Positions 27,098 to 60,672 of a DNA stretch of 64,000 nt are shown here, piece by piece; positions within the stretch are counted from its first letter, which is position 1, and each line of letters begins with the position of its first letter. The stretch is from contig NC_079879.1 in the NCBI RefSeq assembly GCF_029227915.1, positions 8,246,001 to 8,310,000 on the forward strand, in the 5' to 3' direction. Below the pieces are notes generated by a model. It ran no database searches. It had not been told where the DNA came from and saw only the letters and a program-made list of their open reading frames with translations. The position numbers and the translations under genes were made by a program. Origin of the DNA: Hydractinia symbiolongicarpus (taxonomy: Eukaryota; Cnidaria; Hydrozoa; Anthoathecata; Hydractiniidae).

Positions 27098-29155
27098 TTA
27101 AAAAGCAGCGTGGAAATCAGCAGTCTCACTTCCCTCTGCTACCACAGTTATTGGAAGCCAAGGCGTTTCAGTCTTGTTCAAATAATTTGAGGCATATGAT
27201 AAACCATTTCTCCGTTCGTCAACACTTGCTCCTTTACCAACCCAACAGTAACAATGTTCACCAGAGTTGATCACGTACACTAAGAGCGAACAAAGTACAT
27301 TACATGGCGAAAAAAAAGTCGTTTAAAGATAAATGATGTCTATTATACCATCATCAGATGTCAAAAGATTCTTTGAATATCCATCAACTGGATCTAAATC
27401 AAGACTGCCATCTGCATCACTGACTCTAAACATTTCCCTTTTACCTTTGACATCAGGTTTCTATATAAAAAATAAAGAAGTGCTTCGAAAAAATTGGAAG
27501 ATTCACACAGCAGTGACTTTATTAGGGTGGCTCGTAATAACAAGAACTTACTGCTTTGCTTTCTCCATCTTTTAGAGCTAAAAGGGCGGGGTGCTCAGGT
27601 GATGCTGTTTTTTCTTCCACAACCTCAACCTTAGCTGCTGTTTGTCGTGAAGACTTTAGACGAGCACACTCTTGCGAAGCTTTGTACTTTTCATCATGGG
27701 TGCAATCAGCACCATTATACTACAAAGGAAACAAGTGAAAAAAATCATATAACATTTCCCCGTTTAAAAGGAAAAAAACAAAGCAACTTACCTGGTATAT
27801 GATACTACCGGTGTCAATGATAAAAACATCTCCAGATTTTAAGTTTCCTTTCTTTGCAGAAATTTCGGTAGAATAAATTTTTCCTCGTCCTGTTTTCTTT
27901 ACGTGAAATAATCTGGTGGTGTAACCTTCAGGAAGCACCCTTCGAAAACCAGTTTCCGCTCCACCTTTCAATAATGTTAAAGCTGAAATGGTACAATAGA
28001 TATTCTGCTATGCATTCTCCAGAGGTCGGGCTAAGCATCGGGCAAGGTATCAAAAGGAGATAAAATAAATATAAATGAACTTACTATCAAAGTAAGATTT
28101 AAAAAGTTTGGATTCATGTCCTTGCACTTCACGATGTTGGATAGGTTTATCATCCAACAACGTATCCAACTCAACAGTTTTGTATGCAGCAGTACCATAC
28201 TCATCTTGCGTGGAATGTTTCCCAATCCAAAAATGAACATCATATTTTAATTCATCACCTTCTGGTTCTTTGTATGTATTTAAAATGATGTACGAATCTC
28301 CATTGTAGAATTCGCCATATTGCTCTTTCTCCCAATCCGTCACCTACATAGTGGGAGCCAAGAAATTGTGATTTAAACAGTGTTCAAACTCGTCCCCAGG
28401 GTCTTGTGACCCCTGAGATGTTATTACGGAGCGCCGCTATCAACTTCATCAAGAAAATAAAATGCCCTGGGAACGAGGGTGAACAATGTTCGGTGTCTGC
28501 AGACACTAAACAGGTATTTATGTCATTTAAGTCTACCCAGTTGAAAAGGTTGGTGGGCGAGGCCGATAGTGGTAACACAGAAAGTAACCCACAAAGTTGT
28601 ATTACCTTGAATTTAACAATTCTCCAAATTTGTAGTCCAACTTTCTCCCCAGCTCCTTTCCAGGCTGGCTCCGTTTCAGCAGATTCCTTCTTGACCTAAG
28701 ATTAAAATTTGTTGTGGATTTTATTTATTGAAAGAGAGCTATGATTAAGGTTCTATGGCTGGGTGGAAAGAATTTAATTTTTTTCTTAACTTTAACAGGG
28801 TCTATAACTTCAGAGATTCAATCAAAAACATGATTTTGATACAACAAAGACAATTATTATCTCCAGAGTTCTTCAAGATTAAACTATTTCAAGGTTTATT
28901 TCAAAGAGTTCTGGGGTCGAGAATGGGAGGCTCTGTCCGGTCCCGAAATATCAGGACTACTCTGATATTTGCTAGTTTCTTCTTATACTAGGTGATAATA
29001 CAGAAATGCCATTCAAATGCCATTGGTTGATTAAATTTTTGTTAGGCGACAAGTCAAATAAAGTGGTTTCTTATAATACATACCTTTTTTTCTGTATCTG
29101 AGCCAAACAAGGCCATGTTAGAATCCTTCCAGTCATATTTCTTTGCCTTTATCAT
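27098..29155 (-). CDS. Gelsolin/severin-type actin-binding protein, tandem copy 1
   Basis: Three-domain gelsolin-family protein of 357 aa, of the size and layout of severin, fragmin and CapG. These proteins cap, and mostly sever, actin filaments under calcium control in the cytoplasm. Seven exons: 29084-29155, 28606-28695, 28085-28343, 27792-27982, 27552-27719, 27349-27460 and 27098-27279. Domain 1 (about 35-145) has the core [16 protein letters not shown] and the family hallmark [10 protein letters not shown]. Domain 2 (about 155-255) has LFHV and GDVFIIDTG. Domain 3 (about 268-357) has [10 protein letters not shown] and [13 protein letters not shown]. It is one residue longer than the other two copies because exon 4 gains three bases. 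No signal peptide is seen. It is the most downstream of three tandem paralogues on the same strand. Whether it severs or only caps cannot be decided from sequence. Confidence 0.93.
28388..28482. repeat. Short inverted repeat in gelsolin copy 1 intron 2
   Basis: Ends AACTCGTCCCCAGGG and CCCTGGGAACGAGGGT are near-complementary, about 95 bp apart. Same repeat family as at 2032, 26639 and 30551. Confidence 0.6.
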
Positions 29156-32100
29156 ATTGATTTTCTTTAACTGTTCACAAAGCTCGACAATAAAGTTTGA
29201 ATGTTATGCCACTCCTTTGCAACAGTTTGTGTCGACTTTATAATATTTAGTGAAGGCCTTATAAGGAAGTTAAAAGAAATAATTATGACAATTTATTAAG
29301 CGTGGCGAAGCGTTTTTAAAACAACCCGTAGAGGTTTTTTTAAGTGTTAGTTACAGAAGGTTTATACCTCACCAGATTTGAAAAAAAGGTTTCTGTTAAT
29401 GACTTGTTCAATGCAAAAGTGCGTAAACTATAATTATTATGATAGGCATGCCCATCGCGAGCTTCCGCGTTGTGAAAGGTTGAATCAAGTGTAGTGAATT
29501 TTACTTCAAGAAGGTAATGTTTTCACTTCTTACTGCTTCACTTGTATGTACTGTAGAAGCTTTCAAAATAACTTCGCACGATATCTAACCTCTCTGAATA
29601 TAACATCATCGGGAATATTCTAAATTTTAATTAGAAAATAAAGCGATACATTTTTTTCAAGTTTCAGGATTTTTTACCTGTTTCGCGAAAATTAACCAAT
29701 GAGAAATGTGTAGATTGTCGATTCGTTAAAATTGATTCGCGCGAAATAATACAATTCGCAAAAATTGAGCCAGTTAAATGCGAGTCTTCCATGAAGTATC
29801 CAAAAAGATAAAAAAGCAGAATGATTTAAGTAATTTAATGTCAAGAATTCGCGGTTTCGGTTAATTCGCCGAAACATTTATGATTTTTAGGAATCGTTTA
29901 ATTTAGTTCCTCTAAACTTGAAAATTATTCAACAACATTCGAGAAGCGGGAAAAGAAAACACAAAGTCTATTTTTATTTGGAGTATAGGTTCATTGCCAG
30001 CCAGTTTCTTTTGTCTTCGTTAATAATATTAGCTGATCTTCTGCTTTTATCACATTAGGCAAACCACATCAGAACGATACTGATATTTTTAGTGGGCAAT
30101 CAAAAGGAAACAGAACGAATTATGCGTGTGATTTTATATATTTATATATTTAAAACTTTATAACTGCGGGGTTTACAACATCTTCCCCAAGGCTCTTGAT
30201 ATTTACGTTACACTTTAATCAAAAGCATTAATTTCCCGAAATAAGTTGACTTTTTGTTGGCTATCGGCGTAGCAATTTCGTACCCACAGCTTTTTTTTCG
30301 TCTGATATGAGCCAGCAATAAAAGATCTAAGAACACAAGGATATTTTCGCAGAATTAAATTTCGTGAAGTTTGGTCAAATTATCAAAATTTTGCATTTTG
30401 CAAAGCTTGCATTTCGCGAAAATATCTTCCGCGAAATTTAAGTAATATTAACAAATGTAAAGGAAATAAAACAACGACAAATGTAATCTTCCAAACTTCT
30501 TTTTATTTCTAAAAACAAGCAAAATGTTATGAAAAATATACTAAGGGGTAGGTTGCCAACCCGACCCCCATGCTCTTTGTCTTTTTATTAGAAAAAAAAG
30601 CCCTGGGATCGAGGTTGGTAAGTTGCAATAATCCATGGGTGGAAGAAATTATTCACTAAAACCCAAACAAAATTGCAAAAATATTTTCGCGAAATTATTT
30701 GTATACCATAGATTTCAACACCGTCCCCTTAAGACTTGTTAGGTTTTTTATATTTAAACGGCCTGAAACAATTTAAAAAACCTAACAAATCCTGGTTACG
30801 AGATTGACCCTAAATATCTTTTGGGAAAATCCTTATTTTTGCGAACGCCATTTGCGATAATATATTCCGCGAAAATTCACTACTTTCTGAGTACTCGTAC
30901 ATCTCTTTAAACACCGAAAATTTGTTCTTGTTAAATTTTTTGACAATAATTAGCTTTTTTACGCAGTATATATCAAACGAAGAATATGAACTTTTTTGAT
31001 GTGTCTATGACAGGTTAAGTTTTGTCCCCGAACTTATAATCTGGTTTTTTTTAAACACGGATGGACATTTCGCAATATATTTTTTTTGCATTTCATCATT
31101 TTCCCGCTCGTTCACACGTAAGCCACAGAATTAATGAAATTAAATAAGAAAGTAAAAGCAATAGAAAATCGTACCATTTTGTTCAGTTTCATAGAAAAGG
31201 CGTTCTTGTACAAAAAGAACCGGAAATAAATTAATTTGTATGATAAAACCTGGACATTTCGCAATATATTTTTTTTGCATTTCATCATTTTCCAGCTCGT
31301 TCACACGTAAGCCACAGAATTAATGAAATTAAATAAGAAAGTAAAAGCAATAGAAAATCGTACCATTTTGTTCAGTTTCATAGAAAAGGCGTTCTTGTAC
31401 AAAAAGAACCGGAAATAAATTAATTTGTATGATAAAACATGTTAAATCATGATGCATTAACTTTTCACCCCTTTTTTTTCCCCAAATATTTTCTGAAATT
31501 TCCAATCCTCCTGGGTAAGGACCAATTTCAAACCATCCACCTAAGTTATTGGTGTTAGGAGGTGCCCACACTATAACAAATGCTGGGAACGAGGTTGATA
31601 GAAACCTAGGGTTGTCGATTTAATACGATGCATAGTAACAAATAAAAGCAGTAATTTAACAGCACATCGCACTTAACGTCTAGACGTGTGATTGTGGCTG
31701 TATTATTCTTATTTTTTATTCTGGCTACAGAGGTTCTCCATAGTGCCCTTTTTCCTTTGTTAAGGCTGGAAATGATAAAATGAAAGCAGGGTAGATCATA
31801 GATTTTGTCTATCAATTACGAAATGAAGCATCTGGGGTGGAGCACATTTTTATAATTTTCTCCACCAAAGTTTTTTATTAGATTTTTTGTGAGTCTCTGC
31901 ATCATTTTATGGAGACTCGGACTAAAATTATTGTACCTTAAAAATTTTTCCTAGTTATTAGGTTTTGTATATTTCTAGCCTAAACGGTATTTGTAGTCCT
32001 GTAAAATGTAATCTTGTTCTTACACCTTCCTGGTGTCTTCCGCTGAAAACAAATGGAATGCTTCTGGGGACTACGCAAAAAAAAAATTCACAATAAAAAT

Positions 32101-32707
32101 AAGTTTATTTTCTCCAGGTGATACTAAATTTATGTTTACAAATGTAATTTTACAAAGCGACAACGTCTTGACCGTACATCACAATTCTTGACCGTACATT
32201 ACATGCCCTCAGTGATGTGTCCACGGAGTGTGTATGTGTTATGCGACAATCAAATCTTTACAAATTAAATAACTATTCAAAGCACCATACTTTGATCCTA
32301 AAAAAAGAAGCATGTTGATTCATATCGTTGGACATAATGCCCCTCCCACCCTCTTTTTTTGCTGACATCAAACCTTTTTCATATCTGATTTCTTTGATGT
32401 TGCAAGTTTTGCCTTTCACCTTTACATATATTAAACAACATAGTTTAAATCCTTGTAAAAAACTGATTAATGCTGAATATATAGCTTGCTTGTTTTCTGT
32501 ATTCAAACCTCCTTTAAAAAAATGCATGGCCAGTCAAACAAAGAGTAGATGTTTGGCTACGATGAGCAGTAATTTCTCAAGTTAAAATTTTGAAAAAAAA
32601 AATCCCAATCTTTCTGAACACAACAATCTTGTTTTTTATTTTTATTGGCAAAAGTACAATACAAGAAAGTTTGAATCTAGATTAATTTTTGTGAGACACC
32701 TACCATT
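29156..32707. other. Intergenic region between gelsolin copies 1 and 2
   Basis: About 3.5 kb containing the copy 1 promoter side and the copy 2 3' side. Contents seen: a CCTCG-family repeat at 30551-30618, a 189-bp tandem duplication at 31063-31440, and AT-rich filler. No open frame here resembles a protein. Confidence 0.6.
31063..31440. repeat. 189-bp tandem duplication
   Basis: Two adjacent copies, 31063-31251 and 31252-31440. They differ at one noticed base (TTCCCGCTCG versus TTCCAGCTCG). Non-coding. Either a recent duplication or an assembly artefact. Confidence 0.85.
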
Positions 32708-35114
32708 TTAAAAAGCAGCTTGGAAATCAGAAGTCTCTTTGCCTTCTGCTATCACAGTAATTGGAAGCCATGGTGTTTCGGTCTTGTTCAAATAATTTGA
32801 GGCATATGACAAACCATTCTTTCGCTCATCAATACTTGCACCTTTTCCAACCCAACAATAACAATGATCACCAGTGTTGATCACATACACTAAAATACCA
32901 GAAATTTTTTAAGAGTATGGTCATTAAGAATGTTTATTTATTTTAATTTTGCAAATGATATTTTAATGAAAGTTGAAGGTATATACTAATGTTCTTAAAA
33001 ATTTTCCAAAATTTTGATGAAAATTACTACATTTACTCAGCAATTAGTATCTTGTCACATATCCTCAAAAAACAAAAAATAATTACCATCATCAGATGTC
33101 AAAAGGTCCTTTGAATATCCATCAACTGGATCCAAATCAAGACTGCCATCTGCATCACTGACTCTAAACATTTCACGTTTACCTTTGACATCAGGTTTCT
33201 AAATATATATTAGACAAGTAAATAAAGACAAGAACACCTGGATAGCTTAACAATCATCATCATAACAATTATCTATTTACATTCTTTAATGTCGCATTGA
33301 AATAAAAAATGTCAAATAACAAAAAAATAATTGGAGAATTAGGTCCTTACTGCTTTGCTTTCACCATCTTTTAAATTCATAAGAGCAGGATGTTCTGGAG
33401 ATGTTGAATTTTCTTCTAAGGTTTCAACTCTAACCTTACCCCCACGTTGTGATCGAATACGAGCACATTCTTGAGCAGCTTTAAACTTTTCATCATGACT
33501 GCATTTCGAGCCATTATACTAAAATTGGAATGGTGTGATTTGCAAATTTTTAACAAAAGATTTTGTAAATAGGACTTTAAAATGCAAAATAAAAAAAATT
33601 GCAAATGAACACATTGTGAATTAATTAGCTCAATAACCATTGTTTTACTTATTCTAAAGTGAATTTCGTTATCCATCTTTGTTTAAAAAATGCAGAATTT
33701 GAGTTTGCAGACAAACTCACAAACATTAATTCAACATTCTTTTCTTCCTTTAACCCGTAGTAAGATATAAACTATCTCTATTAGATTGATAGTTATTCAT
33801 ACAAGGAGCTTACTTGGTAAATTGTAGTTCCAGAGTCAATAATAAAGACATCTTCAGATGTCAGATTTCCTTTCTTTGGACTAATTTCCGTGCTTGTGAT
33901 TTTTCTTCCTGCTTTTTTAACATGAAACAATCTTGTTTTGTAAGATTCTGGAAGCACTCGGCGAAAACCAGTTTCAGCACCTCCCTTTAATAATGTTAAA
34001 GCTGAAATAAAAATAAAAACAGTGAAATTATGAGTAGCTTTAAGTTAAGAAAATGTAAAAACTTTTGCAAGTACAAGTTACACTTGTATATATAAATTTA
34101 CTATAAATTCCTAGATTATTAACAGATCAGTAAGTACCTACAGGTAAAGTAAGACTTGAATAGCTTTGTTTCATGTCCTTGCACTTCACGATGTTGGACA
34201 GGTTTATCATCCAACAAAGTATCCAACTCAACGGTTTTGTATGCAGCAGTACCATACTCATCTTGCGTGGAATGTTTACCAATCCAGAAATGAACATCAT
34301 ATTTTAATTCATCGCCTTCAGGCTCTTTGTATGTATTCAAAATAATGTACGAATCCCCATTGTAGAATTCACCATATTGCTCTTTATCCCAATGTGTTAC
34401 CTATGATAATTTATATAAAATATTAAAGCTAAAAAATAGGAATTATTGGTACTAAAAATATAAATTTAATATATATAGCTATATATATATATATGTAGAA
34501 ATTTACCTTAAATTTTACAATCCTCCAAATTTGCACTCCAACTTTGTCCCCAGCTCCCTTCCATGCTGGTTCAGTTTCTGCAGATTCTTTTTTTACCTAG
34601 ACATTGTTGAGTAAAATTGCTTCGTTTATAGCGTTTGTGGTGGAGTAGCTAGCTAGCTTATGTTTAGACCATAAAGCACTGATGTTAAAAGTACTAAAAC
34701 TAGCCAAATGAATTCAATAATTAGCTAGCTTCCTATTTAGTAATAAGAAGTTCAGCAACACAGACATTTAACTAATTTGTAGTGCAGCACTCGCGTAATA
34801 TATCAAACATTAACTTGAACTTGGTATTATGACTATTTTAGTCATTGAAGTGTGGGTTAAGGTCCTTTCTACGAAGTACTTAGCTTAGCCTTTTAACCTT
34901 TTGATCTCAACAATTAACGTCAGCTAGCTAGCTAGTTATAAATATTTAAAAAAACTTTTGACGTTAAAATGCCATAAAGAATGTTCAACGTAAAAATAAG
35001 TGTACAGAACTAGCTAAAAATGGCTTATCTAACTAGCTATACCTTTTTATCTGTGTCTGAGCCAAACAAGGCCATGTTGGAATCAGTCCAGTCATATTTC
35101 TTTGCTTTTATCAT
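32708..35114 (-). CDS. Gelsolin/severin-type actin-binding protein, tandem copy 2
   Basis: A 356-aa paralogue of the genes on either side. Seven exons: 35043-35114, 34507-34596, 34142-34400, 33814-34001, 33351-33518, 33087-33198 and 32708-32889. They total 1071 nt with all phases matching copy 3. Its three gelsolin domains carry the same landmarks: [16 protein letters not shown] and [11 protein letters not shown] in domain 1, GDVFIIDSG in domain 2, and [14 protein letters not shown] in domain 3. Intron structure is the same as copy 1, with the 112-nt sixth exon undivided, so copies 1 and 2 are structurally closest. The exon 3 boundary differs: it ends Phe-Thr-Ser rather than Phe-Asp-Thr. Role as for copy 1, calcium-regulated actin filament capping or severing. 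Differences in expression cannot be read from the sequence. Confidence 0.93.
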
Positions 35115-36414
35115 CTTGGTTTTGTGAGTTGTCGACAAGTAAAAAAATAGGTCAAGGAAAAACTTTTTAAAGTTCTTTTGCCACTCCTCTTCGCTCGTAA
35201 CAGTTTAGAGAAGAGGACGGTTTATTTTTATAGATCGCCTTTATGGGTTTGTTTATGTGCCCTTTTATGGTTACCAAAAACAATGCTGTATTATCTTACA
35301 TTGTTACATGCCTTTAAAGAACATGCAAGACGAATTGTTTTGGTACCATGTAAACAAACGCACCAATGTTAGCTAACTCCATCGCAGAGCTTTTTTGGAA
35401 ATGTGTTAAGCAGACACCTTAATAAATTCAATGTATGCCGTTGAGTTATTTACATAATGTGTGGAAATTGTTTTTAGCTAAGTTCACTCCTTGACAAATG
35501 TTGCTAGGGAGGGCATAGTTGACTCATTGATACAGAATGTTTATCTCCATGGTACAGACTTGAAAAAAAAAGAAACGATTAATAACATATTAGACTATCA
35601 ATTTGGCTTTTGATGTAAACGAACGCACCAAATGTCAACCATTATTCATTGTCTAAAAAAGTTTAATCTTGGCTCAATAGGCTATTACAAATAACACGCG
35701 GGTTTTTATCCGTTCTCAAAGTTTCCTATAATAAATTCATTAGCATTTCCATTTTAGTAGTTTTTAACCACTTTTGTTATCAGTGCACTTTATTTCGTGA
35801 ACAATATCAATGTTGTGCGCCCTGAAGCTTATAAGAAATAATAATAATAAAAATAAGAGTGCTAATTATGACGAAACTACTCCATCGGGGTGCTTGCACA
35901 TAAAAAACTTCTTTATCATTTACAATTTTCTGTTTTTGTAACGGATCTTAAAAGGTGTAGTTTTACAAAAAAACCAATCCGCCCTACACGGCGTTGTTAA
36001 AAGTCTCTATGAAATTTACGTTTAATATAAACCAGTTAGTCTGGAAATAACCACAATATAATTGTCTTTTACACTAATACAATCAAACATGAGCATAAAT
36101 TAAATTGTTGCCTCCATAAATAACATTTCTTCAAAACATCAAGTGAACTCTAAATAAATAAATACATAAAAAATAACCAAAAATTAAAAAGCATCGCCTA
36201 AAAAGCTTCCAACTGCAGAGAAGAGACCCTATTGATGACATTGCGCAATTCATTCACTACCGGTGACGTCACCATAAAGAGAATCAGTCTGCTTTGAGGC
36301 TAGATCTAAAATATATTACTATTAACTGATTATAAAAAATATAGTTCAGGAAATTTCTTCTATATCTGGAAGTGAATAATTTCCGGAAATGAAAATAACC
36401 GTCTCGCTTACTAT
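35115..36414. other. Intergenic region between gelsolin copies 2 and 3
   Basis: About 1.3 kb upstream of copy 2. No coding sequence is seen. One palindromic GGTGACGTCACC lies at 36262-36273. Its CRE-like core could be regulatory, but it is about 1.15 kb from the copy 2 start and close to the copy 3 stop. Confidence 0.5.
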
Positions 36415-39400
36415 TTAAAATGCTGCGTTGAACTCGGCGGTTTCTTTTCCTTGTTGAACTACAGAAACAGGAAGCCATGGTGTACTTGTCTTGCTCAAGT
36501 AGTTACACGCATAAGCTAATCCATTTTTCCGTTCGTCAACGCTTGCTCCACTTCCAACCCAACAAAAACAATGTTCGCCGGAATTCACGATGTACACTGA
36601 ACACGAAACAAAAAGTAGAGATGTAAACAAACACAGAATAATCCCTTATTTGATCCGGTTTTAGGCGTCGGAAAACAGACTAAAGTTCTTATAAAGATTT
36701 ACTCCCACGGCATGCAACATTTGCAATAAGTTTCGTAATAATTACTTCCCTCGAAAATATATTTCCTTAAAGCACACGGACGAAACACTAATATTGAGGT
36801 TTGCACTAAACTTTTGTATGGCATACATTTTATGGACAAAAACCCAACGTCGGTCCCTCTGACAAACAATTAGCACTGCATAAAAAAGGCCAGATGGGGG
36901 ATTGCGTTGTTACATGGACCCGAGAACTTGCTAAATGTATCCAATGTCACTCACCGTCATCAGAAGTTAATAAATCTTTTGAAAAGCCGTCAACATCATC
37001 CATATCCAAACTACCGTCAGCATCACTCACTCTGTGATGACACAAACAAAAATAAACATTACAAGATGCGGTGAGAAATCTTTCTTCTGTTGCTTATAGA
37101 ACATTGACTGCGTTTAAATATCTGCATTTCCTGATTAGTTGACAATTTTGTTTTCAGAACTACACGACTATCGTGCAAAACTCGGATGGAAATCTTGGAT
37201 GGTTTTTTGAACAGATAAACTGAATGTTGGTATAAAAAATACAACGATTTTTTAGCAATCAACACTCAAATGTACACATAAAGTATAAATTTGTTATTTT
37301 TACCTAAACATTTTTCTTTCACCTTTTTCTTTAATTTTCTAAAGAGTAAAAAAATATTTTTTGAACCGTCCATACCTTTGTGTTCCACCCTCTTTGTTTC
37401 ACCCAAATAAAAGAAACATAAAAAATTCTAGAGACGAGGTTGGTTTACAGTGCATATGACTAGCCTACCTCTTTGCTTTCACCATCTTTTAAAATCATCA
37501 ATGCTGGATGCTCAGGTGAAGTATTTCTCTCTTCCAAAGTCTCTACTTTGACTTTTCCACCACGTGTTGATCGAATGCGAGCACATTCTTGCGCTGCTTT
37601 GAATTTCTCGTCATGGCTGCATTCCGCTCCATTATACTGCAAGGAAAGATCGATGTAAACAAAAATGTATTGAAAAGTCCACTTCTGGTTACTTAAACGA
37701 ACTTACCTGATAAATAGTACTTCCAGTATCAATGATAAAAACATCTCCTGTTTTCAAATTTCCTCTCTTCAAGCTAACTTGAGTGCATGTTATTTTGCGG
37801 CCTTGTTTCTGAACATGGAACAATCTGGGTTTGTATGCTTCAGGAAGCACTCGTCTGAATCCAGTATCAGCCCCTCCTTTTAGCAGTGTCAAAGCTAAAA
37901 ATAATTGTCATCAAGAGTTAGCTCTTCAGATGGAACAAAATCTAATCAACGCAAAAAAATAAACTTACTATCAAAGTAAGATTTGAAAAGTTTGGATTCA
38001 TGTCCTTGCACTTCACGATGTTGGATAGGTTTATCATCCAACAAAGTATCCAACTCAACAGTTTTGTATGCAGCAGTACCATACTCATCTTGCGTGGAAT
38101 GTTTCCCAATCCAAAAATGAACATCATATTTTAATTCATCACCTTCGGGTTCTTTGTATGTATTCAAAATAATGTACGAATCTCCATTGTAGAATTCACC
38201 ATATTGTTCCTTGTTCCAATGTGTTACCTGTGTGGAGAAACCGTTTTAATATCAAAAATGTTAGAAAGAAAATTGTTTTTTTATTTCGTTTCCAGTGGCA
38301 ATATAGCGCAAAACATTCATTTATTCTGAATAAATTGATTGAATTTACACCGCTTTAACTAATAAAGACGAGGCGCGATTATTACAACAAAAAACTCAGC
38401 ACATCCGTAGGAAGTAAAAACATGGCAAGCTCTTGTTTTTTTAGACAAGTGGAAACTATTTTTTTCTTATTACACAAAGAGTGATACATACTACTGACCT
38501 TAAACTTGACAATTCTCCAGATTTGTAAACCAACGTCGTCCCCAGCTCCCTTCCAAGCAGGTTCAGTCTCTGCAGACTCTTTCTTCACCTAAACGACGTT
38601 ATATACATATAAGGATAACTGAACGAAAAAATTATAATTGCTTATTTAGTAAAATGCTTTATCAGCGTTTAAAAGCGGAAAACCATGTGAAAGTTTTTAT
38701 TTGTAACCTTTCGTCATGTTTAATTCGCATTAATTACACATTTTAAGAAATTGTTCTAATGAGCAGAGGTTAATATGGTGATTTCATAGTCATCTGAACT
38801 TAACCTCAAACAACAAAACTGAAATCCTGCGAGAAGAAAAGAGATGATCCACAAAGAAATGAAATGGTGTTAAACTTAAATAGTTTGGAACAGAACCTTT
38901 TCCCCAGGGCTTTTTCTCTTCCTGACAATCCTCCGAGACTGACAGCGAAAAAGAGGTTTGGCTTTGAATAGAAATCACCCGAAAATAAACAATTCCTGGG
39001 GACAAGTCGAAAAAGGGATGCTGAAACCAACTTTGTTTCCAGGCTAAATAAACAAATTATTTATATATGAATTTCAATGGCGACTTCACAGTTCTTTCGT
39101 AGCACGCAGTTAAAATGAAAACGCCAATAAAAGGCTTTACATCTGTCTGAAACTTATAATAAAATCTAAGTGGTAGAGTTTTACAAAGAATGTATTCTTT
39201 GTGTTTTATTAATTGTTGATTATAATCCTAGCTACCTTCAGATTAAATCTTAGTTGCTTGGTAAGCCATACGAGCAAGAACGCAATTCATATCAAACGAT
39301 TAAGACGTATGAAACTAGTTCTATACGTGCAATGTTGAAGACGAAACTTCAACGACAAATTCAACTTTGTTTATTTTGTTTTCTTAAAAATAAAACCAGC

Positions 39401-39770
39401 ACTAAAAACTAGGTGAGAAAATATTAATTTGGTAAATGAATACAAAATATAACAAAAATTATAACATAAAAATACGTTTTCTTATAAGCATAGCAAAATT
39501 CAAAATTCAAAATGGAGGGAAAGTTGAGTATATTCCGCACCCTTTCTAACCCTGGGATAGAAATTCGAATTTTTTTAGGAAAAAAACAAAAGGTGGGCGT
39601 ACTATAACGTAATTCAGATTCGAGTTCTATTACCTCTACTCAGGCTTAAGACAGTGTGCTTACAAAAAAGAAGCAAATTGGTATTTATAAAACTATACCT
39701 TTTTCTCAGTGTCTGAACCAAACAAAGCCATGTTGGAATCCTGCCAGTCATATTTCTTTGCCTTAATCAT
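36415..39770 (-). CDS. Gelsolin/severin-type actin-binding protein, tandem copy 3
   Basis: A 356-aa three-domain gelsolin protein, the most upstream of the tandem trio. Eight exons: 39699-39770, 38499-38588, 37969-38227, 37707-37894, 37469-37636, 37304-37338, 36955-37031 and 36415-36596 (1071 nt). It begins [20 protein letters not shown], nearly the same as its paralogues. Domains: gelsolin 1 at about 35-145 ([26 protein letters not shown]), gelsolin 2 at about 155-255 ([14 protein letters not shown]), and gelsolin 3 at about 268-356 ([24 protein letters not shown]). It differs from copies 1 and 2 by an extra intron (37032-37303) that splits their sixth exon after MFR, and by more divergent domains 2 and 3. 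Yet its exon 3 is almost identical in nucleotides to that of copy 1. Confidence 0.93.
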
Positions 39771-40358
39771 TTTCTTAAAAAGTTTGTATATATACAAAAC
39801 TTGTTGAAAATTCTTTTTCGTTCTCTTTGAAGCGTCAAAAGGAAAGGTCGTTTTTAAAGCTTGATTCAAGTTTTATAGCCTTCTTAACCCCCCTTAAAAA
39901 GGTCGCTCCAAGCAGTAAAAACAATAGGTGTATTATACGGTGTTATGAGCAAAGTCAAAGGTTGTGAGATTAACTGACGTTTTAATAACGAACGGAACAG
40001 TATGGTATGTTTGTTGAGAAGACAATTACGCCATTGATTGTCGAGAGAAGATTAAGATTTCTTGAACAATAAACATTATATGAAGCTATATAAAACTTAT
40101 ATTTGAAATTCTCTACAAAAATACACACGAATGGTACTTCAGAACGTTTTATCAAATAACATTAAATCGTGCCCATCCCTTCGACACATTTCGATTTGTG
40201 CTGACATTTCAAAACTCTCCCAAAATAACACGCCTAGCTAACCATCTTGTGTAAATAGGTTGGAGTTATTTACAAAAATAAGGTGTTAACAAGAATATAT
40301 TTTATCAGCATATAAAACCTTTTTAATATAAACATTTACATACTATACAATATCTACA
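39771..40358. other. Spacer between gelsolin copy 3 and the LRR gene
   Basis: About 590 bp, AT-rich. It should hold the copy 3 promoter and the 3' UTR of the LRR gene. Nothing else is seen. Confidence 0.5.
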
Positions 40359-49640: not shown

Positions 49641-50602
49641 ATTTTTCTAATTCTTCTTGAAAAATTTCACTAATTTGATTACCATGGTCTGTTGTTTATA
49701 TTTTCCACCTACAGAAATGCTTGTGCATGTGCAAAAAAAACAAAAACATTTTATCTTTTGTAAACACTAGCAAGTCATCTATTAGAAGAGGATTTATTGC
49801 AATGTAAAGTTTTTAATCTTATTAGGATTTTACCGTAATATTCAAGTGCATTGCACTGCAGTTGATCTGTGCGGTCATTTCTTTATAGAACTTTTAAAGA
49901 TTGGTCAGTAATAAAGGCAGCTCGTGTATAAAATTAAAAATTAAGCCATGTTAACCCAGATCTGAGAATAGCAGGGATAAAAACATTTTCAAGTTGTTGG
50001 ACCATCTACCAAAGACAAAACTAGAAAACCATGTTTCCTGATCAGGTTATTTGTCTCTCCAATTAAACACAGAGTATCCATTGATGAGGGTTTGTACCCT
50101 GATCTGTCATTTCTAGAGTCTGGTCTGGTAGAAGAGAGGAAAGACGAGTTTTATTTTCAAGAGAGCTGGTCATCAACATAAATTTAGACAGTTTTTAGAA
50201 TAATCCATTTACCTTTCACTAAAGAACACTGCTATCTTCGTTGTTTCGCGTACCTTGATGTGGTAATTATTACCATTTGAAAAATATAGCTGAGCTCGGT
50301 TCGGTTTCTGGTTTGTTTACACAATGCGCAGCTAATGCTGCCATTTTGTAAAAAACATGCTCTTACAGCAGTATTTTTTAACGAATTAAATGAACTATAT
50401 TTTTAGAATGGGCCATCTATAAATTCTAAGAACTCCCGTTGCGCTCCCCCACAGCGCTAAATTGTCAAAACTTTTTCCTAGATCATCACTTAGTCAATCA
50501 GCTTATTTTTCACTTTGATGCTCCCTTGGATCGTTTCCTACAATATAAAAAATATTTTGTTTCCTTAAAATATTTTTTATTCTAGGGAGAGCAAGCATTT
50601 TT
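49641..50602. other. Spacer between two transposons
   Basis: About 960 bp with no gene. It ends with TTTT (50599-50602) directly before the RAG1-like transposon terminus. Confidence 0.5.
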
Positions 50603-50644
50603 CACGGCTGTTTCAGAGCGGAAACTAAGACTGCGCATGCGTCA
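50603..50644. repeat. Left terminal inverted repeat of the RAG1-like transposon
   Basis: Starts CACGGCTGTTTCAG, continues AGCGGAAACTAAGACTGCGC, and ends ATGCGTCA. It pairs with 56507-56555. Confidence 0.85.
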
Positions 50645-51430
50645 ATAATTACGGCCACGTTGAGGCGCAAGATGGCGGGCGCAAATAAAAACAATCATGA
50701 TAAATAAGTAACTAACTTTTTGAAATCGCTTTTGCATGATAGAATCTATTTCAGTGGATTTAATTTAGTTTTTTAAAGCATTTCAACACGCTGGAAGCTA
50801 AATCTTTCTTTTACCTTTGCGACAAGCATGCTGTTGGAGTAATACTGTGGCAGTTTTGAAGGCATACTTTTTTTTGTTAAAATTAACATGGCAACTTGTT
50901 CCAACTAATTTTTGGTTTTGTGGACGTTGCGAAGTTATGTGGCTGGTGTATTATATATTTTTGGAAAGCTGAAAGGCTCATCTACAAGGTAAGAAAAACG
51001 AAAAAACTGTATCAGTACTTCTGAAAGAATGCTAGAGCGCTGAATTCTGGCAATAAAAGTTAGTGTAAAACCTGAAAATTTTAACTCCCTCTTTGACATA
51101 ATCTACTGTATGATTTATTGTAGGCATTAAAACTGTTGTAGTTTACTAAGCTAATATTTCACAGAATAACAACACTAAACAACATTCTATATAAACAATT
51201 CTGTAACTCTAAATAAGGTTTCTGCGTCTCATACACTACTAACGTAAGCTCGACAAAAAGTCAAATAAAAATGAACTATGCATGTAGTAAGCTAATTAAC
51301 TGTTCAATTCTTTTTCTTTCTAGACCAGCTGATCCACCTTTGAAATAATGCAAAGACTAAAGGAGCTTGCAAAGTAATGCTAATATGCAGTTAAAGATAT
51401 AACTAGCTATCTAAGCTGTAAGTCTAAAAG

Positions 51431-54400
51431 TTATTCTTCACGTGCAATTTTTCTTTTTTTAATTTTTGGTTTTAATTGGCTCGATTCAGGATTTACATTA
51501 ACAAAATGTTGCTTTAATGTATTTCGTAACCGCTCGACTGGGTTTTTGATGCAGCTGTACCTGCTCGACATCCTGTTGATTTCATGATGCAAGCTTTCTC
51601 CACCTTAAAAATGTTATAATTTGACATTTAAGCTAGCTAGCTACACATTTTCTGAAAAATAACACATTTTGGTAAAAAACACAAATTTTGGTGTTACCAG
51701 GTTACAAATTTAAGTGGCTGTTTACCTTGTTCGCCATAAAACCCAAATCCAACATTCCATTTTGCTATGAACTCAGTGACATGATCTTCAAGCATATGCA
51801 GTTTTGGTGAAATATTAACTTTTGGCCAGTTAGTTCGCAGATGCATCATGAATTTATTAATTGAAATTTCTAGAATTATGTACTATATGTATATTATTCT
51901 TTCTTTTTGTTTTGTTTTTGGCACATGAAATTTTAAAAAAAACTTATTTATTATTAAAAAAAGGAACAAGTTTCTCACCTAAAGCCAGTATTTCCTCACA
52001 TGACAGATATTTTGCCGAATTGTAAATGTTATGAACTTCTGCAAAGTAAGTAAATAACATGTCGTACTTATCCATTTCTAAATTCACACTGTGAATAAGC
52101 TGGTCATCATGCTTTTGTGCTGCAACAATCTCTTTAATGCTGGATGTTAAATTTTGGATGTTTTCTTTCTATAAGAGCAAGATTGTTTTTTTAATTTTCT
52201 TTAAATATGTTATTTTTAAATTGCTACATTATTGTTAGTATTAACAAACCTTTAGCAATTTATGTACATGGTTGCCGATAAAACTTTGGCCATGGTAGGC
52301 CTGACGTTCAACACCCATTTTTTGCAGCGTTTTATCTATTGAAGAAGCACAAGGACCAACACCTAAAATAAGATGAACAAACTATTAAACATAGCTTTAG
52401 ATTGGAGAGAATATAAGGCTTGCATCATAAGATCAGAATGAAAATTATAATTTTGGAAAGTTTTTTTTCGGGAATTAAATTTCTTGGAATTTCCAGACAA
52501 AAAAACATTTGCGAATATCACAAAAAATTACTTAGGTAATAAAAATGATCATACCCACTAAAATTCTTTTGTTGTTTCCCAAGGTTGAGATTTCTAATTC
52601 TAATTCTGTGATTTTCTTCTCAGTTTTTATTATACTTTTCTCGTACGTCAGTATATTTCGTTGTAAGCCACCAGATACTACAAGCCAGTTTAACTGATCT
52701 TGCTGGTTTGCTAATTTGGCTTTTTCATCTTCCAGCTTTTGCTGCAAGTCATTTGTTTCTTTAAGGACTTCGATGTAGTCACCATAATCTGAATCCAGTT
52801 CATTGTCTTCTGTTGCCAACAGCAGAGCTATTTTTACATCATAGTCTTGGCAAGAAGACTCAAACATTTTAAACATCTTTTGATATACACCCAAGGAAAT
52901 ATGAAGACCAGGAATACAGACCTAAAATTAGGTGTTTATATAGATTTTATTTTGGGATTATTAAATCAACTTGCAGTGGAAAAGCATAAAAATATGATGT
53001 ATACTTGATCAATAGGTATGTCAAAAAATATGTTGTCAATGACATTATAAAATTCTTTCGCATTTTTAGGGCTCCCACCACTTTCACGGAAATCTGCTAA
53101 ATTTTCTTCAAGTGTCGCCAGTGACCTTTTCTTAAATTTCTTGCGAGTAAACACTGGGATGTTCATTAGTTTTGAGGTAATGTTGCAAAACAAACAGCTG
53201 TGACGCCCTAAACACAAATGTTAAAGTATACATATTTTATTAGAAACTTTTAAAAATAAACCATTTTTAACTATGCATTTCCCATATCTGCGTAGTAAAA
53301 ACCCATTGTTAAACTACAGGAACTTTATGAAGTTGCAAAAAAAGTTCTGTAAAAATTAATTAATTTTGATTATCAACTAGCAACTTGCCCCAGATCTTAA
53401 GTAATTAATATTTACCATTTGCACCAGTTATACCATACATTGCACACAGAAATTCGTAGTCGCCATACATAAATACACGGAATATCGACTCTTTATATTT
53501 GACTTGTTGCAGCATTTTTATTTGTGGTCAAAAATTAATTAATTTTGATTATCAACTAGCAACTTGCCCCAGATCTTAAGTAATTAATATTTACCATTTG
53601 CACCAGTTATACCATACATTGCACACAGAAATTCGTAGTCGCCATACATAAATACACGGAATATCGACTCTTTATATTTGACTTGTTGCAGCATTTTTAT
53701 TTGTGGTCGAAACCGTTCAAGGCAGACTCTTAAGTTTGTTCTTGTGTCTTTCCCTAATTTAAAAAAAAAATATAAAAAATGTTTTGATTTCTACTTTAGA
53801 TCACTTAGATCATTTCTACTTTAGATCACAATTAGACATCACATGCATAGAATTTTGGAAATTCCAGTTTTAATTTTTTTTTTTTCATATTTGTAATATA
53901 TTGCATTAATGTTTGTTACCTTCAAAAATGCTAAACATTATTGTGTTTTCCTTCTTGTTTGGGTTTAGAACATTGCCTATTTGATATGCCATTTTAAAAC
54001 TATTTCCTCCATGGTCTCCACCAATTTTAACATGGATCTCATTGTCAGGAATGAAACTATGTTTTACAAGTAAATTGTGACATTCTAGCTTTTTGAGTTG
54101 ATACAGAATGTGGCCAACTACATTATACAGATACCCCCAGGGCCTAGGTATAACGGATACCCTGTTTCCAACTGATAATTTGGTGAGAGGAGCCAGCTCA
54201 ACTCTCAGTCCTTGGCCTACCCATTCAGCAGCGACACTTCTTGCTTTTTTTTCTGATTCAATTTTTATGTTGAATGTTTTCAACCAACGTGATATTTCAC
54301 GTAGTTGATTCCATGGCATGTTTAAATTTGATTTCATTGCTGTGATGTGATTGGCTGGAATAATGACTTCTGTACCCAAATTTTTAATGATAGTATTTCT

Positions 54401-56075
54401 GTCACTTTCTTCCATAGACTTTAGCAGTGCTGTGGTCTGTTTTGTGACAGATTGGGTTTCTTCACCAGACATCAGATGGATTAACTCCTTGGCTGTATTT
54501 GCTCTTTTCCGCACATTCCTTTCACATGTTTCATCAGAAGACTTGCGAGGAATTCTAATGGGTGTTATTGTCAATGGCTAAAATATGGAACATATGTTAT
54601 TAATTTGTTTTATGTAAAATGTAATATTACTATTAAAATTATCATATTGTTACAGACAATTATGTGTACATTATTTTTAATATAACATAGCATAGTTTTG
54701 TATTTTTGTATAAAGTAGTTATACACATTTTTTATATAAGATCACTTAACGATGTAGACGCCTTAGCATTTAGGGTGGGCACATCAAAATTTTAGTAAAT
54801 CTCCTAATATATAGAATGGTTTTTATTGACCCCCAAAACTTCCTATATTCTGTGACCCCTCTAGCCACTTACTTATATTTATTATTATTTTTAATTATTT
54901 ACTCTGAACATTTTAAAATTTGTCTTGTTCTTATTATGGCTTGTTTTTTGTATAAAAAATGTGTATAAGAAACATTTCACTGGAATTGTAAAAAAATGAT
55001 AACCTAGGTATGCACATATATAGACATATACAAAAGCAACTTATTTTCAGTTTTGATTTCAGCCTTAAAATTGCTAAGATCAAAATTTTTTGCTTTATCA
55101 GCCGTTTGAAAATCAGTTGCTTGTTAAAAAAAGTCAATGTCAAATCACTTTTACTGAGTCCACTCCATACATAAGTAATCTTACTTGTGAACTTCCACTG
55201 GGCAATTGGACAGTTTTATTCGGCAAGTTTGACTGCTGCATTTTTATTCCAACCACATGAGCAATGCATTCTTCTACCTTTTTCGGTACAGGCTTGGAAG
55301 GGCTCAACTGCATCATCTCTAGTGTTGTAAATGACAATGCTGGAGAGCATGTGTGCGATTGTGCAGACAGCAGTTTAAATGAACAACCACATGTTCCCTT
55401 GACAACTCGTGTGTTTAAAATCCTGGAAATGCACAAACCAGGCGAGACATCCCCGGGTGTTGTTGGGATGCTGCAGGTGGGACATCTATTTGAATTTTCC
55501 AACCAATTTGTTAAACACAAGGCACAAAACACGTGGTTACATTGGTTTATCATTAATGGCCTTTTTAAAATATTGCTACACAAAGCACAAATCAGATGTT
55601 CCCAGTTGCCTTCACTGATATTTATGTCTGAGAGAACGTTTCCACTATAGTCAAAAAGTTCAGAGGTTTTTCTGTAAATTTTATTAAGTTCTAGGGGTGT
55701 CCAAGTTTTTTCTGCGGAATCCACAGCTTTGTGTGTTGGGTTACCACCGCCCCTTCTTTTCATAGGTTTGCCACCTCTCTTTTTTTGTGCACTTAATATG
55801 CATGTTTTGCACTCGGTGTCTTTATGTGTATACCATTTAACAGGCACAATAGCGGTAGCTGAGTCACGTTTTAGGACATTACTTATTGTAGCAAAGCACG
55901 AGTGACAGAATTTTTTTGGGTGAATGCCTGCCCGATCAGAATAAAAATCAGCTCTGAAAATACTGTCCAAGTTCTTTATGTGCTCTTGGACAATATGTGA
56001 TCGTCCAGGCAGAGTGTTTCCACATATTCGACACAGCTTGTTCAACCGAGCTAGGTGTAAATCCCCAGTAGCCAT
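51431..56075 (-). CDS. RAG1-like DDE transposase with N-terminal RING/zinc region
   Basis: A 965-aa protein in nine exons: 55185-56075, 53920-54577, 53595-53753, 53005-53207, 52555-52921, 52250-52362, 51979-52168, 51726-51869 and 51431-51603. They total 2898 nt, all in phase. Residues 1-250 resemble the RAG1 N-terminal region. They contain a zinc module (C15, C18, C57, C60, H84, C89, C92) and a C3HC4 RING (C163, C166, C179, H181, C184, C187, C198, C201), followed by a further zinc-like TCGCS...HTC. The C-terminal part reads as an RNase H-like DDE core: D485 (KIGGDHGG), D555 (YGDYEFL), zinc ligands C574/C577 and H885/H890, and E911 (GGESLHH), with E907 as an alternative. D555 to C574 is 19 residues, as D708 to C727 in RAG1, and both have H-x4-H about 20 residues before the glutamate. 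Between D and E lies a long insert with a coiled coil (about 660-755). The start MATGDLHL is preferred over an upstream in-frame ATG at 56132. It presumably cuts and pastes its own element. Confidence 0.87.
53351..53708. repeat. Perfect 179-bp tandem duplication covering most of transposase exon 3
   Basis: Copies 53351-53529 and 53530-53708 read identically. The real exon 3 is 53595-53753. The duplicate supplies an extra 114-nt exon fragment (53416-53529) with its donor site but no acceptor AG at its 5' edge, so it should be skipped. The fragment carries the codon for the second catalytic aspartate. It is either a very recent event or an assembly artefact. Confidence 0.9.
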
Positions 56076-56506
56076 CTTGAACTTTAACAAAAATTTTGAA
56101 AAAAAAGTACCTAATGTTTGATACAATATCAATTCGTAATGTACTGATACACCTACAGTTCTTTTTTTATTCGTATCTCGTAACTATCTTGGAATGATTT
56201 TTATAAAAATTATCTGTGGGATAACTTCGTATCTGAAAATATTTTGCTTTAAGTTGGCATGGTGTCCACAGTCTTCAAAATGGAGGTTGAAAGTTTTTGT
56301 TTTGTTTTAGCTAGGCAACAAGCGAATAGCTTTGTATTTGAATTAATCTTATTGGTATAGGACTATATTTTATTTAAACCACTTAGTTTCCAGTCCTTAA
56401 GTTGGTTTATGTGATTAAAATGCCTATTAAACCTGGTGCTAGCTACCCTAAAATTTGTTTACTTTTAAGCGCAACTCGCCCCAGTCCTTATTTTAAATTT
56501 TTTTTT

Positions 56507-56555
56507 GACATGCGCAGTCTGAGTTTCCGAAATCTCGCTAGCTGAAACAGCCGTG
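56507..56555. repeat. Right terminal inverted repeat of the RAG1-like transposon
   Basis: Ends GCTGAAACAGCCGTG. It is the complement of the left end with an 8-bp extra segment (CTAGCGAG region), and is followed by TTTT. Confidence 0.85.
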
Positions 56556-58750
56556 TTTTGACATTGTCCCTCCTGCCCCCTTCTATAATCTCATCCTAAT
56601 AGCCGTTTTGTTTTTTCTGACATGGGCGAAAGAAAACCCTGGGATAGAAATTGTCTTTATACTTAGTCAGGTTTTTCCTTTTGAGTATTTTTCACTTGCA
56701 AAGCTAAGGGGCCTTTTTTGTATTGATTTACATCAACCTCGACCCCTCCTTTGTCTCGCTGGCGTGCGCAGAAAACGAAACCCTTATCTTTTTTGCATGC
56801 GGACATAGGGAACCTGCTGCCGCTCCGCAACCTTTCATACATTAAACCACCTCCATCAGTTTATTATTAATAATTTTTGTTCTAGATGGATGAGGTAAAT
56901 CCGGGAAATTTAATGACTTTAACTTTTTTTCTGTGGATTTTATTATTACGTCATATTTCTCAGTTAACCACAATTTTACTAAAACCATTCGAGGGACTTC
57001 GAGGTCACATTAAACCCATGCGCGAGTTATGCAACTGTCTGTGATTTTTGTTAGTATTGTCATGTAAATCCAATCTCGATCCCAGGGCTATTTTTCTCTT
57101 TTTGATATAAGGGACGGTTAGAAAGAAAAAGATTTCGTCTCACTGTGCCTTTATAAAAAAAGAGACAAAGAGTCGGGGGTGAAGTTGAACTCATATATAA
57201 AAAAATTCAGTTTATTTTGTTTCTCACAGTTCATTTTTATTCAAATGATATTTTCGAATGCGACACTTTTTAATAAACAGCAACCCCGCTCCTCATGAGA
57301 AAGCAAGAAAAAAATTGAGATAACTGAGATTTAGGGGTTTTGACTTATCAAGTGAAAAAAGTGACAATGATCGAACTTTACACAAAATTGATTTTTCCCG
57401 TTGTGTAATAGAAAATAGAAAAAAAAAATACGCGCTTAAAAATGCCAAACAGGCTTCGCTTCGTTCCGCAAAAATAAAAATAAATGCATGGGTTTATAAG
57501 AACCAGTTTGATCATACACAGTTCTGTAAATTTAACGAGTTAACGAGTGCCCGTGCTTTGTGTGTGCTGTTCCCCGTACCTTAAGAAGTCTTTAAATTTT
57601 TTCCCGACTTTTTTATAACCGACCAAACTTTTTTGCCGACAACCTTTTTGTTGTTGTTTTTTTCCTTGTTGCTAATTTACTTCAGTTTTATGCAATTATT
57701 CATTATTTGTGACTAAATTCAAAAATTTAGTCGGCAAAAAGTGACTAAATTTTGTGCAAGTGACTAATTTTTTAGCCGAATTTTTTTTACCGATAAGGTA
57801 TCCCAATAACTTCTTAAAATGATGTTTAATAAAATAAGAACAATATCTTTTATCGCCCCCTTTACCCAATCCGTTACACAGATTTTATTAAATTCCGCCA
57901 ATCTTATTTTATCTTCAAGCAAAACCGTGATTTGTCCTGTCACGGAAACTTAGCTTAAAACAAACAAAAACAAGAAGCCCTACGGCTTAAAGGTTTTAGT
58001 CTTTAGCCTGAAAGATTCTGAAATTTGAAGTAGACCTTGAAAACTGATCATTGAAATCCAATCAAATCTTAATTATTACGGAATGTTCTGACCACACAAA
58101 GAATACACGCAGATCCGTAAGGATCACATTATTTACAATCTGTATTCAGATTCGTCATAAAATTGTCAGAGATTAAAATAAAGCATCTTTATTGGCTTTC
58201 GAGAAAATGGTCTTTGCTAACAACTCCAAGCTAACAGTTCGTTCACATTAAGATTTCTTGAGCAATAAGTTAGGGAAATGTGGACACAACTTCCAATTAT
58301 TTTATTTTATATATAACTATTGAGAAGCAATTATATATAAAAAAACATTATTATAAAAAAAAGTGTAAAAAAAAGTTTAAAAAATTCGCATATAAAATCC
58401 TTTCCAGATTTGGTCTGGTTTAGTTATAACAACATAACTACTCGATTTTCATCTTCGCTTAATGAATGCAATACCAGCGCAAAGATACTTATCAACAGAT
58501 GGATTGCTCGTTATTTGTTTCCTAAAGTTACAACATACCCAACATTAGAGTTTCATCACATTGTTGAAAATTTTATTTAGTCACTATCAACTGCAACAAT
58601 ATTGGAATACAGTTAAGATAAGTCTGCACCCACATTTTATATGCATATCACATTTTGATACCGTTGTAGTGTTCTTCGTTGCAATAACAATTTTAAAATT
58701 ATGACACAGAGAAAATGCTTCTGCATTATGTTAGCAATTCAATGTTTACC
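56556..58750. other. Intergenic region right of the RAG1-like transposon
   Basis: About 2.2 kb without a recognisable gene. A CCTCG-family inverted repeat lies near 57063-57190 (AATCTCGATCCCAGGG ... GGGGGTGAAGTTGAAC). The rest is AT-rich. Confidence 0.5.
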
Positions 58751-60012: not shown

Positions 60013-60672
60013 TAAGCTTGGTTCTCACTATGGGCTAACGATAAGCTAACCATAGTGCGCATGACGCACTAAGACCTTAGCCCATAGTGTGAACGTAAAA
60101 GTACCTGCTTAGCTCACAGCTGAACTCATCGTTAGCTCATCGTTAGCCGATTTTTTGAAATCAAAATTTTTTGATATTTTTTTTTCGGCTACAGTGAGAT
60201 AAGCTCACATTCAGCAATCATCAAAGGAAGCCGACATAAATCGTGCCCAAAGCAATTTTTTTTTAAAAAAAAATAGTATCTTTCGTTGTGAAAGGTCATT
60301 TGAAAACTAAAATGGCTATTAAAATTAAAAAAATTACGTTTGAAGAAGATGAAGAAGAGTTGACGTTTACGGTGAAAGACTTTCCCTGCCTTTCTGACCC
60401 AAAGTCGTTTCCTTTTCCGTAATTTTGTTAATTCCTTTCTTTCCAGGCTACGTTGTCTTCCTCAAAGTGGTAACAACAAAAAAAATTTCTTTCTATCTTT
60501 CTTTTTTATTCTTTCTCGCTTTAGATTCGGCTACAAAAGAGCTAACGATGCACCGTAGTGTGAATGTGAAACGAATACATCAGGTACCCGCAGCTCAAAA
60601 ATTGAAATCGACTAACACATTATGCGCATTATGGTTAGCTCATCGTTAGCCCATAGTGAGAACCAAGCTTAA
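60013..60672. mobile_element. MITE with about 50-bp inverted ends (660 bp)
   Basis: Left end TAAGCTTGGTTCTCACTATG, continuing GGCTAACGAT and AGCTAACCATAGTGCGCAT. The right end is the complement with few changes. The words GTTAGC, CGTTAG and CATAGTG are repeated internally. A short frame at 60312-60422 (37 aa, beginning MAIKIKKITFEEDEEE) lies inside and may be a captured fragment. No transposase is present. Confidence 0.75.

Follow-up and report, generated by a model that had tools for sequence, protein, structure and literature searches.

A probable Chapaev DNA transposon from Hydractinia symbiolongicarpus whose transposase begins with a RAG1-type zinc region and RING

A 64,000-nt stretch of the Hydractinia symbiolongicarpus genome (contig NC_079879.1, positions 8,246,001 to 8,310,000; hereafter the window) contains a 5953-bp element at window positions 50603-56555, bounded by inverted ends and carrying one minus-strand gene. 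The gene consists of nine exons and eight GT-AG introns (Table 1). Its spliced frame of 2898 nt, including the stop codon, encodes 965 amino acids (aa) with no internal stop. Similarity to a related protein, P0001, supports the nine-exon model, since inspection by eye found no alignment gap exactly on any of the eight exon junctions. An initial annotation had described the locus as an intact RAG1-like transposon; its coordinates, inverted ends and continuous nine-exon frame all stand, whereas the name suits only part of the protein. In our view the element is very probably a Chapaev DNA transposon of the CMC/CMCT clade, structurally complete and with a single gene, whose transposase starts with a RAG1-type zinc region followed by a RING.

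Each end of the element is built from two sequence blocks. Perfect matches to the 14-bp terminal block A, CACGGCTGTTTCAG, are found only at the two ends. Allowing up to three mismatches yields six matches where 2.8 would be expected, which puts the looser ones at chance level. The 21-bp inner block B, CGGAAACTMAGACTGCGCATG, likewise occurs in only two places, with none expected from shuffles, and its two copies differ at one position. A gapped alignment of the 70-bp ends scores 45, against a best score of 31 among 2000 random window pairs. The inverted ends are of the CAC...GTG type, as in Chapaev, and TTTT lies immediately outside both of them, as first annotated. The fifth flanking base is unequal (TTTTT on the left, TTTTG on the right) and there is no perfect 5-bp repeat, so the putative target-site duplication, judged from this one insertion, is best read as 4 bp. 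Chapaev target-site repeats are 4 bp long. No further pieces of the element were found elsewhere in the window (blastn, E 1e-3), and tRNA and Rfam scans of the whole window gave no matches.

The first approximately 230 residues of the predicted protein resemble, and are colinear with, the N-terminal zinc region and RING of RAG1. Pfam reports RAG1_imp_bd (E 7.2e-6, best stretch aa 38-103) and a C3HC4 RING at aa 163-201 (zf-C3HC4_2, E 1.9e-11). In a PDB search, aa 38-229 align to residues 156-357 of mouse RAG1 (E 4e-11). The top row of that search, just above mouse RAG1, is a RING2/BMI1 RING chimera (E 1e-11), which indicates that part of the mouse RAG1 score comes from the RING. By sequence, the match is shown to go partly beyond the RING, since the RAG1 chain 21wb_A matches aa 38-95 alone (E 4.4e-4) and profile A1, composed mostly of RING-less proteins, matches the N-terminal part of RAG1 (E 2.6e-7). 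When aa 1-297 served as the sole query for RAG1-family proteins, none of 777 candidates reached E ≤ 0.001; the RAG1 link therefore rests on the Pfam and PDB matches. The RAG1 N-terminal and RING region named in the initial annotation is borne out by these results.

The catalytic core, in contrast, is not recognisably that of RAG1 as judged by sequence. Pfam assigns aa 373-540 to DUF1280 (E 4.3e-15, above the cut-off), and the RAG1 core family is absent from the Pfam list at E ≤ 10. The motif order D485, D555, C574-x2-C577, H885-x4-H890 and E907 or E911 corresponds to the D, D, C(2)C, H(3-4)H, E of Chapaev, and these motifs are kept in those relatives that extend to them. The third catalytic residue is likely E907 or E911, a choice of glutamate that we infer. 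Against RAG1, profile A1 gave a colinear C-terminal piece of 3.4 bits, which is not significant, with significance only in the N-terminal part; profile A2 gave no match at E ≤ 10. A profile comparison with the C-terminal core of mouse RAG1 reached a probability of 0.8% (P 0.07). The fold of a relative's core, as distinct from that of this protein, weakly resembles RAG1/HzTransib.

According to one study, DUF1280 corresponds to the transposases of Chapaev and groups with RAG1 in a single clade of the RNase H-like superfamily (PMC3985635). Kapitonov and Koonin (2015) described the Chapa domain, named after Chapaev, as a truncated RAG1 N-terminal part of TransibSU, and reported that two subgroups of Chapaev have a RING after Chapa, an arrangement also seen in RAG1 (PMC4411706). 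In their scheme, a Transib superfamily divides into four clades, one of them Chapaev; RAG1 is also included, and the transposases are related only distantly (PMC4411706). On the basis of the DUF1280 core, the RAG1-type zinc region followed by a RING and these published descriptions, the element appears to belong to the Chapa and RING subgroup of Chapaev. Elements of this kind are already described, reportedly by Kapitonov and Jurka, whom Kapitonov and Koonin (2015) cite, and the present copy is a further member. The label "RAG1-like" would be apt for the front part of the protein; applied to the whole, it holds only at the level of the broad superfamily. A mislabel is thereby corrected: RAG1 N-terminal similarity does not amount to a RAG1-like catalytic core.

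Table 1. Features of the element and its flanks, in window positions.
Feature	Position	Strand	Basis
Left flanking TTTT (putative 4-bp target-site duplication)	50599..50602	.	sequence
Left end, terminal block A CACGGCTGTTTCAG	50603..50616	+	perfect match at two ends only
Left spacer, block A to block B, 2 bp	50617..50618	+	end alignment
Left end, inner block B CGGAAACTAAGACTGCGCATG	50619..50639	+	2 matches, 0 expected
Exon 9 with stop; conserved in relatives	51431..51603	-	gene model, alignment
Exon 8: H885-x4-H890, E907	51726..51869	-	gene model, alignment
Exon 7	51979..52168	-	gene model
Exon 6	52250..52362	-	gene model
Exon 5	52555..52921	-	gene model
Exon 4: C574-x2-C577	53005..53207	-	gene model, alignment
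Second unit of 179-bp duplication: partial exon 3 copy and its donor, within intron 3	53351..53529	.	sequence
First unit of 179-bp duplication: exon 3 sequence and the first part of intron 3	53530..53708	.	sequence
Exon 3: second acidic residue D555	53595..53753	-	gene model
Exon 2: most of DUF1280 match, first acidic residue D485 (KIGGDHGG)	53920..54577	-	gene model, Pfam, alignment
Exon 1: N-terminal zinc motifs of RAG1 type (Chapa / RAG1_imp_bd), then C3HC4 RING (aa 163-201)	55185..56075	-	gene model, Pfam, PDB search
Right end, inner block B CGGAAACTCAGACTGCGCATG	56509..56529	-	2 matches, 0 expected
Right spacer, block B to block A, 12 bp	56530..56541	-	end alignment
Right end, terminal block A	56542..56555	-	perfect match at two ends only
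TTTT right flank	56556..56559	.	sequence

Relatives were sought in about 5.8 billion proteins, by a single-sequence search and then by a profile search, which found five and ten, respectively. P0001 is the nearest relative found over most of the core, with 43% identity across aa 254-963 and 36% across aa 5-113 (Repbase lay outside the search). Two of the ten are named. The nearer, from H. symbiolongicarpus, is 57% identical over 294 aa, and the other, from Branchiostoma belcheri, 30% over 716 aa; the former agrees with the cnidarian host proposed in the initial annotation but does not establish it. A domain scan of five relatives detected DUF1280 in all five, RAG1_imp_bd in one and a RING in none. 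Pattern matches among viral contigs (15) and genome contigs (64) yielded no confirmed relative. The protein P0010 is identical at 308 of 311 residues to exon 1 plus the start of intron 1. It was rejected as transcript evidence because it reads into intron 1 and is therefore genomic; its sequence instead points to another allele, copy or individual. Seven cnidarian genomes are listed with DUF1280 counts of 13, 31, 4, 0, 4, 3 and 2, taken here without assignment to species (PMC7642931).

Beyond the spacing of its end blocks, considered below, the element differs from Chapaev elements with Chapa and RING in its distance from the nearest relative found, P0001; it shares with them the DUF1280 core, the RAG1-type zinc region followed by a RING, the CAC ends and a putative short flanking repeat. 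Transib elements share the CAC ends and, via a relative's core, a weak resemblance in fold, but they are described as having no RAG1 N-terminal region and predominantly 5-bp repeats (PMC7204232). N-RAG-TP from Aplysia, compared by description, shares RAG1 N-terminal-like sequence and is described as carrying this part alone (PMC8355894). A strict RAG1-like (RAGL) transposon that has lost RAG2 is very improbable. RAG1 and the RAGL elements ProtoRAG and TransibSU do share bipartite ends starting with CAC and a colinear N-terminal zinc region and RING, as reflected in the mouse RAG1 alignment and the profile A1 match. Their core is of the same broad DDE clade, the fold of a relative's core weakly resembles RAG1/HzTransib, and one classification unites Chapaev and RAG1 in a single superfamily (PMC4411706). 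What speaks against a RAGL element is the core itself, for which the Pfam list, both profiles and the mouse RAG1 comparison all gave no significant RAG1 match. RAGL elements combine RAG1L with RAG2L and have predominantly 5-bp repeats (PMC7204232), whereas the repeat here is best read as 4 bp, although an original length of 5 bp, altered by a single subsequent change, is conceivable. There is also no space for a RAG2 gene, in agreement with the initial annotation, because only 828 and 480 bp of the element lie outside the gene and no intron exceeds 607 bp; the longest open frame not mostly overlapping exons encodes 93 aa. The accompanying statement that, outside deuterostomes, most RAG1-like copies are fragments is out of date: molluscs and a nemertean are described as carrying intact RAGL elements, and Aurelia as having one intact gene pair (PMC7204232). 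A host gene domesticated from a Chapaev transposase, with ends visible by accident, is likewise highly unlikely. The continuous 965-codon frame and an exon 1 from another data set that agrees at 308 of 311 aa would suit such a gene, but the element keeps its two ends and a matching flank, whose loss would be expected of a domesticated gene.

Some observations weigh against a complete Chapaev element. TTTT makes up 2.5% of all 4-mers in the window, so the flanking match is a weak signal on its own, and the repeat may, as noted, be a 5-bp one altered later. The gene also carries a perfect 179-bp tandem duplication with identical units (Table 1), a caveat on the word "intact". The second unit holds the last 114 nt of exon 3 and its donor, without the normal acceptor. 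Splicing of the first exon 3 donor to exon 4 keeps the frame, whereas splicing from the second donor introduces in-frame stops. The element is nearly intact: the earlier claim of intactness applies to the ends and the frame and is qualified by the duplication. It is possible, though we favour it less, that this copy is recently dead, with the duplicated donor disturbing splicing, a reading that is compatible with the Chapaev assignment. The perfection of the duplication and the stops that follow use of the second donor argue for a dead copy; the frame preserved through the first donor argues against it. A second two-copy tandem repeat of about 190 bp, near-perfect (99%) and similar in size, lies at 31062-31441 and is possibly an assembly artefact. 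Assembly error rather than real duplication is therefore a fair alternative for the 179-bp repeat too, which also counts against a dead copy.

For the Chapaev element, we infer transposition activity, end pairing and a RING function as follows. The spliced 965-aa protein would bind both bipartite ends and pair them. Its DDE RNase H-fold core, likely using D485, D555 and E907 or E911, would cut at 5'-CAC, and C574-x2-C577 together with H885-x4-H890 would hold a zinc region. Joining of the ends 4 bp apart in a new target would then generate the TTTT repeat. By analogy with what is described for RAG1, the RING may serve as a ubiquitin ligase, adjusting the level of the transposase or its partners. 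Retaining both ends, a RING and the catalytic motifs of its clade, this near-complete Chapaev element offers a test object for the origin of the RAG1 front end, and can be used to ask what a RING does in a transposon. That the RING front end is older than the RAG lineage is an earlier proposal of Kapitonov and Koonin (2015) (PMC4411706).

The distance between blocks A and B is 2 bp at the left end and 12 bp at the right, a difference of about one helical turn. In this one copy, the spacing is reminiscent of paired RAG signals, whose spacers are given as 12 and 23 bp, with 27 and 31 for ProtoRAG ends (PMC8289069). No description of a comparable spacer difference in Chapaev was found in the literature searched, subscription papers and Repbase Reports lying mostly outside the search. 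A single clean deletion was rejected as the source of the shorter left spacer, as by eye the 12-bp and 2-bp spacers are not interconvertible by one deletion; two events are a possible origin. We regard it as unlikely that the element represents a family with unequal bipartite ends (2 against 12 bp) and a transposase favouring unlike ends, that is, a 12/23-like rule in Chapaev; in one copy, a family rule and a private mutation look alike. If true, a 12/23-like rule would exist outside RAG and Transib, and unequal paired signals would predate the RAG lineage. Should other copies keep the 2/12 difference, one could test directly if end signals of unequal form are older than RAG.

The remainder of the window contains several other features. 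A multi-exon host gene is present in three tandem copies, with pieces 73-93% identical, at 27098-29164, 32707-35123 and 36414-39773; their minus-strand translations resemble gelsolin/severin repeats. A single-exon frame at 10342-11379 encodes a rhodopsin-family receptor (7tm_1, E 1.5e-36), and an exon at 2269-2754 with a DBF zinc finger (zf-DBF, 6.2e-12) points to a DBF4-type gene. A 55-bp unit is present as two tandem copies with an inverted relative close by (24949-25058 and 25282-25332). Finally, 50-bp inverted repeats, 96% identical, at 60013-60062 and 60622-60671 enclose about 560 bp and possibly mark a short non-autonomous transposon.
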